DNA of 64,000 nt from Poritiphilus flavus (GTDB lineage: Bacteria; Bacteroidota; Bacteroidia; Flavobacteriales; Flavobacteriaceae): positions 372,001 to 436,000 of the forward strand of contig NZ_WXYO01000001.1 of assembly GCF_009901585.1 (NCBI RefSeq), in the 5' to 3' direction. The notes under the pieces were generated by a model. The model saw nothing but the letters and a program-made list of their open reading frames with translations, made no database searches and was not told where the DNA came from. Of this stretch, positions 57,094-64,000 are shown one piece after another. Within the stretch, counting starts at the first letter, position 1. Every line of letters begins with the position of its first letter. Position numbers and translations under genes: made by a program.

Positions 57094-57810
57094 TTAAGGG
57101 TTCATTACCTTACCATCCTCCGGAATCCATTTATCATATTCCATATATTCCGCTGTCGCCCGGGCAGATTTTGGGCTTATCAACCTATTTACCAAATGTA
57201 AGGCACCGTCAATTCCGGCAGACACCCCGGCGGTGGTGACCACTTGTCCATCATCCACAAATCGCGTTCCCTTCAGAACCTCAGTTTTTGGAAAAGCCCC
57301 TTCCAGGCGTTCCAAAGCCCCATACCAGGTGGTGGCAGACTTGTTGTCCAGAAGCCCCGCATCTCCCAAAAGAAAAGCTCCCGTAAAAACAGACATCAGC
57401 AAAGCACCATCTCCCGCGCTTTCCCTGATCCAACGGATCACTTCCGGGGTTTTGCGCGACTTTCCCGTTGCACCCCCGGGAAGAACTATAATATCCGCAG
57501 ACGGGGCATCTTCAATAGTGTAATCCGGCATAACTTTGAGAAATCCCTGGCTTATTATTGGATCTTTGCCTACCGCAACGGTAAAGACCTCAAATGCCCT
57601 TTGGTAATTCCCATGGATATCGCGGTAACCGGATACGGCAAAGACTTCGGCCGGACCACTGAAATCCAGTATTTCAACGCCGTCATAGAGAAATATGGCC
57701 ACCTTCTGTTTTTCTTTTTCCTCTGGCAAATCGCTTTCCTGGATTGCTTTATCAGAAATACCAATAAGACACGAACATAATATTAATAAAATCAAGGACA
57801 AATAATTCAT
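57094..57810 (-). CDS. DJ-1/PfpI-family lipoprotein lacking the nucleophile cysteine
   Basis: A 238-residue protein with the GATase-like DJ-1/PfpI fold of the GlxA N-terminal type: VAIFLYDGVEILDFSGPAEV (Glu55), IIVLPGGATGKSR, and the elbow LMSVFTGAFLLGDAGLLDNK. In relatives this elbow reads SVCTGA; here residue 142 is Phe (TTT codon at 57387-57385). The AraC domain of GlxA is absent. The N-terminus is a signal with two close cysteines (LILCSCLIG), so it is probably an exported lipoprotein. Without the cysteine, hydrolase or hydratase activity is doubtful; a binding role is possible. Confidence 0.82.
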   Translation of the reverse strand: MNYLSLILLILCSCLIGISDKAIQESDLPEEKEKQKVAIFLYDGVEILDFSGPAEVFAVSGYRDIHGNYQRAFEVFTVAVGKDPIISQGFLKVMPDYTIEDAPSADIIVLPGGATGKSRKTPEVIRWIRESAGDGALLMSVFTGAFLLGDAGLLDNKSATTWYGALERLEGAFPKTEVLKGTRFVDDGQVVTTAGVSAGIDGALHLVNRLISPKSARATAEYMEYDKWIPEDGKVMNP

Positions 57811-59698: not shown

Positions 59699-60808
59699 TT
59701 ACAGATTCAACCACTGTTTGAACTGAGCTGCGCGGTTCTTACTGATCACCACGCTGATATCCGAACTGGGTGTAACAAGGATCTTCAGCTGGTTATTCCC
59801 GTACTTTACGATCTTGTCTATACTGGATATGGCAATGATGAATTGGCGGTTGGCCCGGAAGAAATAGGAACTGTCTAACTGCGAGAACAGCTCATCCAGG
59901 CTCAGGTTGGTGGTGGATCGCCTACCGTCTATACACACTACATAGGTAATGGTGTTTTCGGTAAAGATATAGGCCATTTCTTCAATGGGAATGGGGATCA
60001 ATTCATTTCGGATATAGGTAAGTATCCGCTTTTTAGTGGTACTGTCCCCGTTCTGCTCTTCCGGTTTTTGCTCGATTACTTTTTGTTGGTAGTCCCCCAC
60101 TGCCCTGTTCAGCTTGGAAAGGTTTACCACCTCGTCCTCCAGTTTTTCATTCTTGAGTTCCAGCCTCTTTTCATAGGCACTACCCAACAAACGCACTGTG
60201 ATGACGTAAGACAATATCACCACCAATCCCATTACCAGGAAGATGGTATAAAAACGCCTGCTTATCTGCCCGATCTGTGTGGAAATATTTCCTATGTTGA
60301 CATGAGCAGCGACGATCCAATCCGAATTTTGCACAGGATACAAATGGATCACCTCAGACTCCAGGCCTTCATCCTCAGAAACATCAGACTCCAGGAGCTC
60401 CTGTCTTTGATGTAATAAGGTATAGAAGCTTTCCGGGCTCAGGTCGTCCGTAACGGAAGAGACAAAGGACTTGTTAGTGCTGGCCGGTTGCCCTACATTT
60501 TTGATATCCGGATGGCAGACTACTCTACCAGACCAATCGTACATGCTCAGGAAACCCATTTCAAAATCTGTTCCCTTCAGGCTTTGTTGTATCTGATCCA
60601 CAACAGAATCTTTAGCAATACCATTGCTCAGCTGATGACCAACCAGTATCCCAAAGGTCTTAGCTTCCTTTTTGCTGAATTCCAGATGCGCCTCCAGCAC
60701 TTCCATCGTACTTGCGCGGATCAGGTATTGCAGGGCGATACCTGCTATAGCCGTGTAAATGATCGCAATAGATAAAAAGGTAAGAAAATAGAGTTTGTCT
60801 TTTCGCAT
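59699..60808 (-). CDS. Membrane sensor with LytTR DNA-binding domain
   Basis: A 369-residue one-component regulator: transmembrane helix (about 8-30), a periplasmic sensor region of about 150 residues with dCache/single-Cache character (FLSMYDWSGRVVCHPDIKNV, HLYPVQNSDWIVAAHVNIGN), a second helix (YTIFLVMGLVVILSYVITV), a coiled coil and a C-terminal LytTR domain (IPIEEMAYIFTENTITYVVC, FFRANRQFIIAISSIDKI). It should sense a periplasmic signal and bind direct repeats. The divergent interval with tandem repeats and the following envelope gene cluster are the obvious targets. Confidence 0.88.
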   Translation of the reverse strand: MRKDKLYFLTFLSIAIIYTAIAGIALQYLIRASTMEVLEAHLEFSKKEAKTFGILVGHQLSNGIAKDSVVDQIQQSLKGTDFEMGFLSMYDWSGRVVCHPDIKNVGQPASTNKSFVSSVTDDLSPESFYTLLHQRQELLESDVSEDEGLESEVIHLYPVQNSDWIVAAHVNIGNISTQIGQISRRFYTIFLVMGLVVILSYVITVRLLGSAYEKRLELKNEKLEDEVVNLSKLNRAVGDYQQKVIEQKPEEQNGDSTTKKRILTYIRNELIPIPIEEMAYIFTENTITYVVCIDGRRSTTNLSLDELFSQLDSSYFFRANRQFIIAISSIDKIVKYGNNQLKILVTPSSDISVVISKNRAAQFKQWLNL

Positions 60809-60900
60809 TATAGGCCGGGCAATTTTGATTCTAAGATAAGAATTTGGTTTTCATTCAGATACAAAAAATGTCGCTTCAAAGGCCATTTAGCATTTCCAAA

Positions 60901-60957
60901 AAAACCGGATTCCTTTCAAGGCCGATATTTCCCTTTTAAGACCGATTCTTCCCTCTC
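60901..60957. repeat. Tandem CCG-type repeats in LytTR/cytochrome divergent region
   Basis: Three similar units, beginning at 60901, 60918 and 60938, share the form AAraCCGATwyTTCC; the last two are 20 bases each. A weaker fourth copy precedes them near 60879. Direct repeats at about two helical turns are the kind of site LytTR proteins bind. Confidence 0.5.
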
Positions 60958-61014
60958 ACCAAGGTTTTGTCTTTGTAAACGGCTGATTTGCACTTGTTTT
61001 GGAAAAGAATTTCA

Positions 61015-61026
61015 GGGCAGCTGCCC
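61015..61026. promoter_or_regulatory. Perfect 12-bp palindrome GGGCAGCTGCCC
   Basis: The sequence is fully self-complementary and lies 54 bases before the cytochrome-like gene. It may act in the mRNA leader or bind a dimeric protein. The rest of 60809-61079 shows the tandem repeats and no full consensus promoter. Confidence 0.3.
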
Positions 61027-61079
61027 GGCTTACAAAACGAACATTTTAGTGATAACCTCATCAATTTAAAAGAAGTATT

Positions 61080-61442
61080 ATGAAAAAGAAAGTGACATTT
61101 ATCCTGCCTCTCCTGGCTTTACTAGCCACTGCCTGTACCAGCGACAGTGAGAGTGATCTTACTGAAGTAGAAGAACCGGATGGACCTATCTCTTATACGG
61201 CCAATATCCGGGGTGTTATAAACAGTAATTGTTTAAGCTGCCACTCGGACCCCACAAGGAACGGCGCCCCCTTTCCATTGACCAATTTTGAGCAGGTCCA
61301 GGTTCGGGCAGAAAACGGTTCTTTGCTTAGAGCAATCAGCAGGCAGACCGGAGAGGCAGGTGCGATGCCACCCAGTGGTCGATTACCACAAGCTACCATA
61401 GACCTGGTAGAACAATGGATACAGGAAGGTTTAAGGGAATAA
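61080..61442 (+). CDS. Mono-haem cytochrome c-like lipoprotein
   Basis: A 120-residue lipoprotein (Cys19 in LLATACTSD) with a single haem-binding motif CLSCH (51-55) and a likely axial Met96 in GAMPPSGRLPQ, the pattern of small periplasmic cytochromes and of the planctomycete-type cytochrome c domain. The end, IDLVEQWIQEGLRE, is typical. It should be anchored in the periplasm and carry one electron. It heads the run of envelope genes divergent from the LytTR regulator. Confidence 0.87.
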   Translation: MKKKVTFILPLLALLATACTSDSESDLTEVEEPDGPISYTANIRGVINSNCLSCHSDPTRNGAPFPLTNFEQVQVRAENGSLLRAISRQTGEAGAMPPSGRLPQATIDLVEQWIQEGLRE

Positions 61443-61466
61443 GAACAAGTGGTAATCAACGCAATT

Positions 61467-62033
61467 ATGAAAAAACTGAAGAAGTTACTGTTTTGGGCAA
61501 TGCCCATCCTGGCTGGTTTAGCCATAAGCGGCATACAGGCACAGGACAAGTACATAGACAGAAATGGCACCATAATCTTTGAGGCATCCGAAAAACTCTT
61601 CGAAGAGGTTAAGGCCAAACATGAATCGGCAACGGTCATCTTCAATGCCGAAAACAATCAGATCGCGGCACTGGCCCTGGTCAAGGGGTTCCACTTCAAG
61701 AATTCTCTGATGGAAGAACACTTTAACGAGAATTATATCGAATCGGAATCCTATCCCAAAGCGATATTTAAAGGAGAACTGCTCAATCTGGACCCCGAAG
61801 CACTGAACGAAAACAGTACCGAGGTTACCGTAAAAGGGGTGTTGGAACTACACGGGAAACAGAAGGAGATAGAAACGGCCTTAAAAACCCAAAAAGTCGG
61901 GGATATCATTTCCATGACCGGAGAGTTTAAGGTGACCCCAGCTGATTTTGACATCGAGATCCCCAAGATCGTCAGAAACAAGATCGCCAAAGAAGTACAT
62001 GTTAAAATGGATTTTAAACTGGTTAAAAAGTGA
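61467..62033 (+). CDS. YceI-family periplasmic protein
   Basis: A 188-residue exported lipocalin-like protein of the YceI family, with a signal peptide (LLFWAMPILAGLAISGIQAQ). Typical stretches are IIFEASEKLFEEVKAKHESA, FHFKNSLMEEHFNENYIESE, PKAIFKGELL, VKGVLELHGKQKEI and FKVTPADFDIEIPKIVRNKI. Family members bind isoprenoid chains such as quinones. ATG 61467 starts the signal. Its stop overlaps the next start (TGATG), so translation is coupled. Confidence 0.9.
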   Translation: MKKLKKLLFWAMPILAGLAISGIQAQDKYIDRNGTIIFEASEKLFEEVKAKHESATVIFNAENNQIAALALVKGFHFKNSLMEEHFNENYIESESYPKAIFKGELLNLDPEALNENSTEVTVKGVLELHGKQKEIETALKTQKVGDIISMTGEFKVTPADFDIEIPKIVRNKIAKEVHVKMDFKLVKK

Positions 62034-62428
62034 TGCGAAGAAAACAATACATCGTACTGGCTTCGAGCCTGTTCGTATTCTTACTGGCCATTTCAGCCTA
62101 TAAGTACATCTACAGGGAACACCGGGATATCGGATCAGAAAAGGCGGATTTCTCCATGTCCGCGGTGGAACTCAAAACAGTTCTTGCCCAGGAAGCCATA
62201 GCCCCAAAATATATAGATAAAGTGATTAAGACCCACGGCATGATCACGGCTATAGAACAACAATCCGCCATAATAGATAACAAGGTCCAGGTAAACTTTA
62301 ACGGAGACGTTTCCGGCAAGCTAAGCCTCAAAAATCCAATTGCTATCAAAGGCAGATGTGTAGGTTATGACGACCTATTGGAACTAGTCAAAATAGATCA
62401 GGCCATACTGGTTTCGCCAAATAACTAA
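62033..62428 (+). CDS. OB-fold (tRNA_anti-like) membrane-anchored protein
   Basis: A 131-residue protein with one N-terminal membrane anchor (IVLASSLFVFLLAISAYKY) and an OB-fold domain: VIKTHGMITAIEQQSAIIDN, KVQVNFNG, IKGRCVGYDDLLELVKIDQA. This matches small tRNA_anti-like proteins often found in Bacteroidota near YceI genes. The function is unknown; an extracytoplasmic place is expected. The ATG shares bases with the TGA of yceI. Confidence 0.75.
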   Translation: MRRKQYIVLASSLFVFLLAISAYKYIYREHRDIGSEKADFSMSAVELKTVLAQEAIAPKYIDKVIKTHGMITAIEQQSAIIDNKVQVNFNGDVSGKLSLKNPIAIKGRCVGYDDLLELVKIDQAILVSPNN

Positions 62429-62447
62429 TCAATATAAATACTGAAAA

Positions 62448-63293
62448 ATGAAAATACTCAAAGTCCTCATATTCTTGTTTCCCCTAATGATCCTTTCACA
62501 GGAGGATCTATTAGATGAAATCGATACCAATGACAGCTCGGATTACGAACAGGCCGCCTTCAAAGGTCTGAAGATCGTGAATTTTGAATCCACCAAAATG
62601 GTATCCCAAAAACAGCTCTTTTTTGTGGTATCCCACCGTTTTGGTTCTATCAAAACAGGGATCGAAGATTTTTTTGGCCTGGATCAGGCTGTCACCAGGC
62701 TCAATTTTATCTACGGTATTTCTGATGGGATCAATATTGGGGTTTCTCGGAGTTCATTCCAAAAAACTTACGAGGCCTCCTTAAAACTTAGATTGCTGCG
62801 TCAGAAACAAGGAGGTTCTCCTTTTACCGTGGTCCTGTTCAATAGCGTATTACTCAACACCGCCCTGGAAGAGGAAGTACTTCCCGGCCTGGAATTCGAA
62901 AACCGCCTAAGTTATTCCACACAGGCACTGATCTCCAGGAAAGTGAACAAGAATCTGTCCCTGCAATTAGCGCCAACCTTCTTTCACGATAACCTGGTGG
63001 CCCTTGATGAGCAGGAAAATTCGCAATTCGCCATAGGGATCGGTGGCAGGCACAAGCTCACCAAAAGATGGTCCATCAATATTGATTACGGCCTGCATCT
63101 GAACCGGGCTTCCGGATCGCCATTTCAAAACCCGCTATCCATAGGTTTTGATCTGGAGACAGGAGGACATGTCTTTCAATTGCACTTTACCAATGCGCAA
63201 CCGATGAATGTAAACACCTTCCTCGGACAGGCTACGGGCGACTGGGGCACCGGCGACATCTTCTTCGGGTTCAACTTATCCAGGGTATTCTAA
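62448..63293 (+). CDS. DUF5777 outer-membrane beta-barrel-like protein
   Basis: A 281-residue exported protein (signal ILKVLIFLFPLMILSQ). From residue 45 on it has alternating strands typical of the DUF5777 family: SQKQLFFVVSHRFGSIKTGI, FGLDQAVTRLNFIYGISDGI, NKNLSLQLAPTFFHDNL, HVFQLHFTNAQPMN, and a C-terminal aromatic ending LSRVF, as expected of a barrel. No function is known. In this cluster it may form the outer-membrane part of the module with YceI and the cytochrome. Confidence 0.82.
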   Translation: MKILKVLIFLFPLMILSQEDLLDEIDTNDSSDYEQAAFKGLKIVNFESTKMVSQKQLFFVVSHRFGSIKTGIEDFFGLDQAVTRLNFIYGISDGINIGVSRSSFQKTYEASLKLRLLRQKQGGSPFTVVLFNSVLLNTALEEEVLPGLEFENRLSYSTQALISRKVNKNLSLQLAPTFFHDNLVALDEQENSQFAIGIGGRHKLTKRWSINIDYGLHLNRASGSPFQNPLSIGFDLETGGHVFQLHFTNAQPMNVNTFLGQATGDWGTGDIFFGFNLSRVF

Positions 63294-63304
63294 AAGACAA
63301 TACT

Positions 63305-63658
63305 ATGAAAACAGGTCTGGCCAAAATTTCAGTTCGTAACAGCTTCTGTTCGAACTGTTCCGAAAAAATTGAGAACGCCTTAACGGCAATAAGGGACATC
63401 AGCAATGTACACCTTTACCCTTCTGAGGCATTGATCGTCTTTAGCTTTAGAAAAGCGAATGAGCTTGCAGTAGCCCTGAATACACTGACGGACTTGGGCT
63501 ATCCACCAAAAAGCGATAGCCTAAACCCGAACAATAAAATAAAGCCTTCATGCATCTGTATGAGGCCTGCCATGCAAGAAGCCTTACCGGCAGGATTCAA
63601 CGAGCTTTACCGCATTCCGGGCAAGGCAGCGGAAAAACAACTCAACATCGCCTCATGA
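63305..63658 (+). CDS. HMA-like small CxxC protein
   Basis: A 117-residue protein whose first 70 residues follow the ferredoxin-like heavy-metal-associated fold: ISVRNSFCSNCSEKIENALT with CSNC (Cys15, Cys18), NVHLYPSEALIVFSF and LNTLTDLGYPP. A second cysteine pair, CIC (83, 85), follows. No signal peptide is evident, so it is probably cytosolic. It could be a metal chaperone or redox sensor of the cluster. It is 11 bases downstream of the DUF5777 gene. Confidence 0.7.
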   Translation: MKTGLAKISVRNSFCSNCSEKIENALTAIRDISNVHLYPSEALIVFSFRKANELAVALNTLTDLGYPPKSDSLNPNNKIKPSCICMRPAMQEALPAGFNELYRIPGKAAEKQLNIAS

Positions 63659-63785
63659 TGGTGATCAGCAAATATCTGAACAAAAATTTACGGCGGTAGT
63701 CGCATCAATTAATACCGTACCGCCACATGAACAGGCTATGGCCTGAGCCCCTATAATAATTGTTTTAACATCTAATCTTTAAAAA

Positions 63786-64000
63786 ATGGAAATGAGAAAA
63801 TTCTTTTTATTAACAATGGTATTTTTTGTACTGCTCGGCTGTAGCAGTGACGACAACGGCGACCCGGTTGACGATGATCCGGTTGACGATGGTCCGCCTC
63901 CGGTTGAAAATAACGCGGTAAGACTGCGGAACGATGCCACATTTGGCAATATACTTACGAGTACCGACGGTTTCTCCCTCTACTTTTTCTCTTTGGACAG
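63786..64000 (+). CDS. Secreted lipoprotein, Yx(FWY)xxD-repeat type (3' end outside window)
   Basis: The ATG at 63786 opens a frame that leaves the window. A lipoprotein signal (Cys in VLLGCSSDD) is followed by a short acidic tandem repeat (DPVDDDPVDDGPP) and RNDATFGNILTSTDGFSLYF, which fits the secreted lipoprotein family with Yx(FWY)xxD repeats. That family is exposed on the cell surface and often lies near small cytochromes. The 127-base gap before it contains GGCGGTA/TACCGCC and CAGGC/GCCTG hairpins. Confidence 0.75.
   Translation, partial: MEMRKFFLLTMVFFVLLGCSSDDNGDPVDDDPVDDGPPPVENNAVRLRNDATFGNILTSTDGFSLYFFSLD

Follow-up and report, generated by a model that had tools for sequence, protein, structure and literature searches.

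Bacteroidota are plentiful in marine waters, and few outer-membrane electron routes have, to our knowledge, been described in them. The closest described systems include Cyc2 of iron oxidisers, which is defined by a 16-strand porin and an AxPxFAR[QK][TY] motif before CxxCH, and the MtrAB-type conduits, whose barrel has 26 strands (PMC8406198). YceI proteins are genetically tied to a cytochrome in BcnA-LcoA-PsrA (PMC9113575), and in Cbp2D of Cellvibrio a YceI-like X158 domain and an X183 cytochrome c form part of one secreted protein linked to extracellular electron supply (PMC12542752). Here, we describe a gene cluster beginning at position 59699 of a 64-kb window (the whole stretch analysed) on one contig of the 5-Mb genome of Poritiphilus flavus, in which a small cytochrome c, a YceI protein and a DUF5777 outer-membrane barrel are encoded opposite a LytTR regulator. 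With a probability of about 0.5, we read it as a compact, LytTR-switched outer-membrane redox module, whose cytochrome would pass electrons to or from a partner on the cell surface, either through the barrel or at it.

The core genes lie on the forward strand. A mono-haem, class-I-type cytochrome c lipoprotein (61080-61442; lipobox Cys19, CxxCH, Met96 ligand) is followed after 24 bases by a YceI-family periplasmic protein (61467-62033), which overlaps by 1 base (TGATG) a membrane-anchored OB-fold-like protein (62033-62428). The DUF5777 outer-membrane beta-barrel (62448-63293) starts after a further 19 bases and an HMA-like CxxC protein (63305-63658) after another 11, while a gap of 127 bases precedes a Yx(FWY)xxD lipoprotein (PF03640; 63786-64000, and on to 65747) that is cut by the window end. 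The LytTR gene (59699-60808, reverse strand) diverges from the cytochrome gene across 271 bases. All genes named in a preliminary description of this DNA were located in the open reading frame listing; its tight spacing holds from the cytochrome to the HMA-like gene (24, -1, 19 and 11 bases) and breaks before the lipoprotein, and the cluster does not stop at 64000, since sequence fetched beyond the window holds, after the lipoprotein, a second OB-YceI-DUF5777 module reaching to about 67727. Matches for LytTR (6.5e-16), YceI (8.6e-12; 46.1 bits against a cut-off of 23.7) and DUF5777 (PF19089, 3.5e-91; 305 bits against 23.1) lie above the curated Pfam cut-offs. Those for Cytochrome_CBB3 (6e-4, with CxxCH), the tRNA_anti-like OB-fold (PF12869, 0.0055) and HMA (0.0051) lie below, so that the names of these three proteins rest on motifs and co-conservation. 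Profiles of the cytochrome and YceI did match in the Protein Data Bank (PDB), with YceI reaching solved YceI structures, while single-sequence searches with these two proteins and the lipoprotein gave no matches there.

Conservation was surveyed in a close set of 80 loci, chosen solely for a close DUF5777, and in a deep set of 80 others spanning many families of the phylum, where a partner was counted if within 3.5 kb of DUF5777 and a haem protein was defined by C(2-4)CH. The nearest named DUF5777 relatives belong to Flavobacteriaceae (e.g. Ulvibacterium marinum, 86% identity), and the family is present in 153 of 395 genomes sampled across the phylum. In the close set, 52 loci have cytochrome, YceI, OB-fold and DUF5777 genes in that order, 45 of them with LytTR. 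The layout of the window (type I: LytTR divergent from cytochrome-YceI-OB-DUF5777-HMA, then lipoprotein, then OB-YceI-DUF5777) has both modules with LytTR in 44 loci; the first module stands alone in 7, with LytTR in 1. A type II layout (25 loci, none with LytTR) has a different upstream block of ECF-sigma-like, FecR-like and TonB-receptor-like genes, named by the look of their sequences, followed by OB-fold, surface protein, DUF5777, cytochrome and YceI genes. LytTR thus accompanies the doubled module, and the core is kept under other regulators, as in a further family with a Crp-type gene at the regulator position (L213). In the deep set, YceI lies near DUF5777 in 72 of the 80 loci and a C(2-4)CH protein in 68; 78 loci have at least one of the two. 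Among 482 background genes lying away from DUF5777, none encoded YceI and 7 encoded C(2-4)CH proteins, which argues that the clustering is not due to chance. The preliminary description had staked its proposal on co-conservation and co-expression of these genes, and both sets of loci uphold the former. The same genome has one more DUF5777 gene, its third, on another contig (L005 7092-8717), where a divergent YceI but not a cytochrome adjoins it; its flanks (carB-like and others) are those of type II clusters, which suggests a type II copy that has been reduced.

The cytochrome has one haem motif and the CxxCH and distal Met of class I cytochromes c, as read from its sequence; residues C19, C51, C54, H55, M96, P97, W113 and G117 are invariant among 30 aligned cytochromes, some of which have CX4CH. 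In deep lineages, the partner cytochromes often carry CX4CH rather than CxxCH (L186 7629-8054, L200, L205 and others). The barrel is predicted by AlphaFold2 to have 12 strands (mean predicted local distance difference test, pLDDT, 94); the model is closed with an even number of strands and matches solved barrels in the PDB (FapF, KdgM, NanC and COG4313 channels; Z 16-18), and the sequence has a hydrophobic N-terminus, consistent with an outer-membrane barrel. Three histidines of DUF5777 (His63, His180 and His241) and a number of Arg/Lys, all placed on predicted strands, recur in about 80-90% of 75 sequences, and they may form a metal- or haem-binding interior.

The cytochrome and barrel are joined in a single 421-residue frame in L200, with DUF5777 at residues 171-418 and a cytochrome domain that matches the stand-alone cytochromes found beside DUF5777 (best E 1e-15). 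The same fusion appears in six further genomes of several families as near full-length matches with no stops; re-reading of the fused gene in L268-L274 found a second, free cytochrome after it in L268, L271, L272 and L274, and in L270 its DUF5777 match is above the cut-off and its Cytochrom_C match just above. Genes for MbnP, an MbnH-like di-haem protein and a sulfite-dehydrogenase-like protein lie upstream of the fused gene in L270 (5961-10137, tested), and L269 (3204-7450) has a similar context by resemblance; these neighbours would be an unexpected tie of the fusion to copper and molybdoenzyme chemistry. By established topology, barrel N-termini are periplasmic. A haem domain fused at that end would then be periplasmic as well, as has been argued for Cyc2 (PMC8406198), and the mono-haem lipo-cytochrome of the window would likewise sit at the periplasmic side of its 12-stranded barrel.

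Four loci replace the haem protein altogether: in L147, L151, L184 and L221, a Rieske-type protein adjoins DUF5777 and no cytochrome was found (L151, the one of the four tested by Pfam, gives PF00355 at 3e-10). YceI is missing while cytochrome and barrel are retained in L159, L208, L209, L219 and L222 and around the fusions, so that the redox protein and barrel look like an irreducible pair. In L222 (7371-12449), a single locus from which no rule is drawn, genes for 4Fe-4S, NrfD and cytochrome c proteins come after those of the cytochrome and DUF5777 and possibly encode a quinone-linked inner-membrane partner.

Very improbably, in our judgement, the barrel could instead be a regulated channel by which a hydrophobic substrate is exported or taken up, and the redox proteins would then be a maturation enzyme for a surface protein rather than a conduit. 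Its fold neighbours (the channels named above and the FadL family) and the varied kinds of surface protein encoded alongside would suit such a role, but the fold matches reflect general barrel similarity at about 10% identity, and the cytochrome fusion and Rieske replacement would be hard to explain.

Compared with known systems, the proposed redox module looks like a porin-cytochrome conduit, yet it lacks defining features of both Cyc2 and MtrAB and is not a BcnA-LcoA system. Like Cyc2, it places one haem c domain N-terminal to a barrel, fused in the L200 lineage and split but adjacent in the window. Unlike Cyc2, it has separate cytochrome and barrel genes outside the L200 lineage, a barrel of a different family with 12 predicted strands, and a company of YceI, OB-fold and surface proteins; the Cyc2 motif, which lies 5 residues upstream of CxxCH, is absent from the cytochrome alignment, read by eye. 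MtrAB, PioAB and PCC share the combination of cytochrome, outer-membrane barrel and surface redox partner but have about ten haems against one here and more than twice the strands. The YceI-cytochrome link recalls BcnA-LcoA-PsrA, although here the cytochrome is a c-type lipoprotein with a barrel instead of a membrane b561, and YceI is dispensable in some lineages. X158 of Cbp2D is a distant profile relative of the window YceI; Cbp2D, however, is a secreted multidomain protein with a cellulose-binding domain and no barrel. None of the open-licence papers searched names DUF5777, an absence that is therefore weak, and nothing in them joins YceI, LytTR and a cytochrome; broader searches gave analogues only. 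The upregulation of a Riemerella YceI gene under iron limitation (PMC5429918) was considered and dropped, having no tie to the cluster.

From the periplasm, YceI and the OB-fold protein would assist the module, and the probable cargo of YceI is an isoprenoid or quinone. YceI also underlies the main rival explanation, detoxification of lipid peroxides or radicals in the envelope, in which YceI would be a BcnA-like lipocalin scavenger recycled by the cytochrome in place of b561, and the barrel would extract or deliver lipid or quinone at the outer membrane. In Burkholderia, YceI and a cytochrome linked to it give protection from lipid peroxyl radicals, and alphaproteobacteria have fusions of YceI to b561 (PMC9113575); the presence of YceI beside DUF5777 in most deep loci fits such a function. 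We nevertheless consider it unlikely: no cytochrome b561 (PF01292) match was found anywhere in the genome, YceI is the part that is missing in some loci while cytochrome and barrel stay, and the surface proteins described below are left unexplained.

In type I loci, the surface slot is often occupied by the Yx(FWY)xxD lipoprotein, which here (63786-65747, running past the window end) has 653 residues and six PF03640 stretches and scores above the NCBIfam threshold for SCO0930-family lipoproteins. Its C-terminal domain carries a His..Cys-x2-His-x2-Met pattern, a motif kept in most relatives, and with this putative cupredoxin-like domain it is the most likely surface partner here. Surface lipoprotein export signals are marked by an acidic stretch at positions +2 to +6 relative to the lipid Cys (consensus SDDFE/SDDDD; PMC5080379); the lipoprotein family has C-SSDD, and many of the cytochromes C-SNDSEDD. 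Among 38 proteins adjoining the core, 31 have a type IX secretion system (T9SS) sorting domain, 14 a cupredoxin, 12 an LTD and 5 a DOMON domain. A Temptin_C protein with a CxxCH-like motif and a T9SS-type or FlgD_ig C-terminus repeatedly adjoins DUF5777 in some deep lineages (L185 9497-11131, L278 73-753).

Three independent signs, the fusion, the displacement by Rieske proteins and the cupredoxin/DOMON surface slot, thus point to electron transfer. Of the earlier proposal that electrons pass to the outer membrane or surface, the redox role is supported; arrival at the surface and the direction of flow are what we infer. More tentatively, and at somewhat less than even odds, DUF5777 with a mono-haem cytochrome (or Rieske protein) may constitute a phylum-wide, undescribed family of Bacteroidota electron conduits, unrelated to Cyc2 and Mtr, that would wire the periplasm to cupredoxin/DOMON surface proteins exported by T9SS or as lipoproteins, under lineage-specific LytTR, extracytoplasmic function (ECF) sigma/FecR-like or Crp control. 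A common cytochrome-barrel-YceI unit of this kind would give a testable function to a large family of uncharacterised barrels, to YceI proteins and to surface cupredoxins.

The cupredoxins also bear on a second rival, copper or iron handling, in which a metal ion admitted by the barrel would be oxidised or reduced by the cytochrome, and copper would be bound or routed by the HMA-like and cupredoxin proteins. We rank it behind detoxification and think it slightly less probable still. The HMA-like protein keeps its CxxC in 50 of 52 relatives, MbnP and MbnH-like proteins precede the fusion, FoxE is the top match of the cytochrome profile among solved structures (E 9e-9), and the scheme would resemble that of Cyc2, whose pore has been proposed to admit Fe2+ (PMC8406198). 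Yet the HMA match is below its cut-off and type II and deep loci lack the gene, FoxE is followed by many ordinary class I cytochromes, and the neighbourhoods showed no recurring metal transporter or resistance gene. Lacking a visible signal peptide, the HMA-like protein is expected in the cytosol, at odds with the wholly periplasmic cluster of the preliminary description.

Several points weigh against the redox module. With its one haem, the module cannot bridge the membrane by itself; it would need a small substrate that enters the barrel, the idea put forward for Cyc2, or else a redox site at the surface that extends into it. In the model of the fusion, the barrel is good, but the linker has pLDDT <50 and the predicted template modelling score (pTM) is 0.63, making the relative placement of haem domain and barrel uncertain; the fold search on this model covered the barrel only. 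The window lipoprotein has no Pfam cupredoxin match, its label resting on the motif, and we know of no redox role for LTD proteins. The relatedness of the loci used to score the operator-like repeat described below, and the derivation of the scoring pattern from the same loci, count here too.

The regulator has hydrophobic stretches at about residues 6-30 and 186-208, read from sequence as transmembrane, flanking an extracytoplasmic part of ~155 residues, with a C-terminal LytTR DNA-binding domain (residues 269-367) and no receiver domain found; its best other match in the genome is mainly to the LytTR domain (E 1.6e-13). Between it and the cytochrome gene lies a direct repeat on the forward strand, TTCCCTTTTA-N10-TTCCCTCTCA (60929-60958), whose half-site 1 (60929-60938) and half-site 2 (60949-60958) start 20 bp apart; a degenerate third copy, TTCCTTTCAA, precedes them (60910-60919, an overlapping pattern match). 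A -7 box-like TTGTTTTG (60994-61001, forward strand) starts 45 bp after the start of half-site 2, and among the loci scored, 30 have a TNNNTTTG box at exactly this distance from the start of half-site 2. The TNNNTTTG box is close to the flavobacterial -7 consensus, TAnnTTTG (PMC9723704). The half-site pair scores at least 18/20 in 44 of 51 LytTR loci against 0 of 105 loci without LytTR, counts that are not to be read as probabilities, the loci being related and the pattern derived from them. The tie of LytTR to the cluster claimed at the outset thereby gains a conserved candidate operator. These spacings stay constant while the intergenic length varies from 95 to >500 bp, which argues for a function of the repeat, and its position upstream of the promoter suggests activation; the membrane protein would sense an envelope signal and switch on the operon through the repeat. 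Described LytTR regulators combine a LytTR domain with direct-repeat sites, half-sites about two helical turns apart, a layout that the candidate site also has; here the regulator is membrane-bound and without a receiver domain, and the half-site is TTCCCTTTCA. Genome matches with 2 mismatches are near the level of a reversed-pattern control, and no wider regulon is claimed. The exact pattern has one copy in the whole genome, at the cluster, and a switch with a single strong site offers a simple handle on the inducing signal.

The window also encodes a DJ-1/PfpI-family protein (57094-57810) with an apparent N-terminal signal or lipoprotein sequence, which is unusual in a family that is mostly cytosolic.

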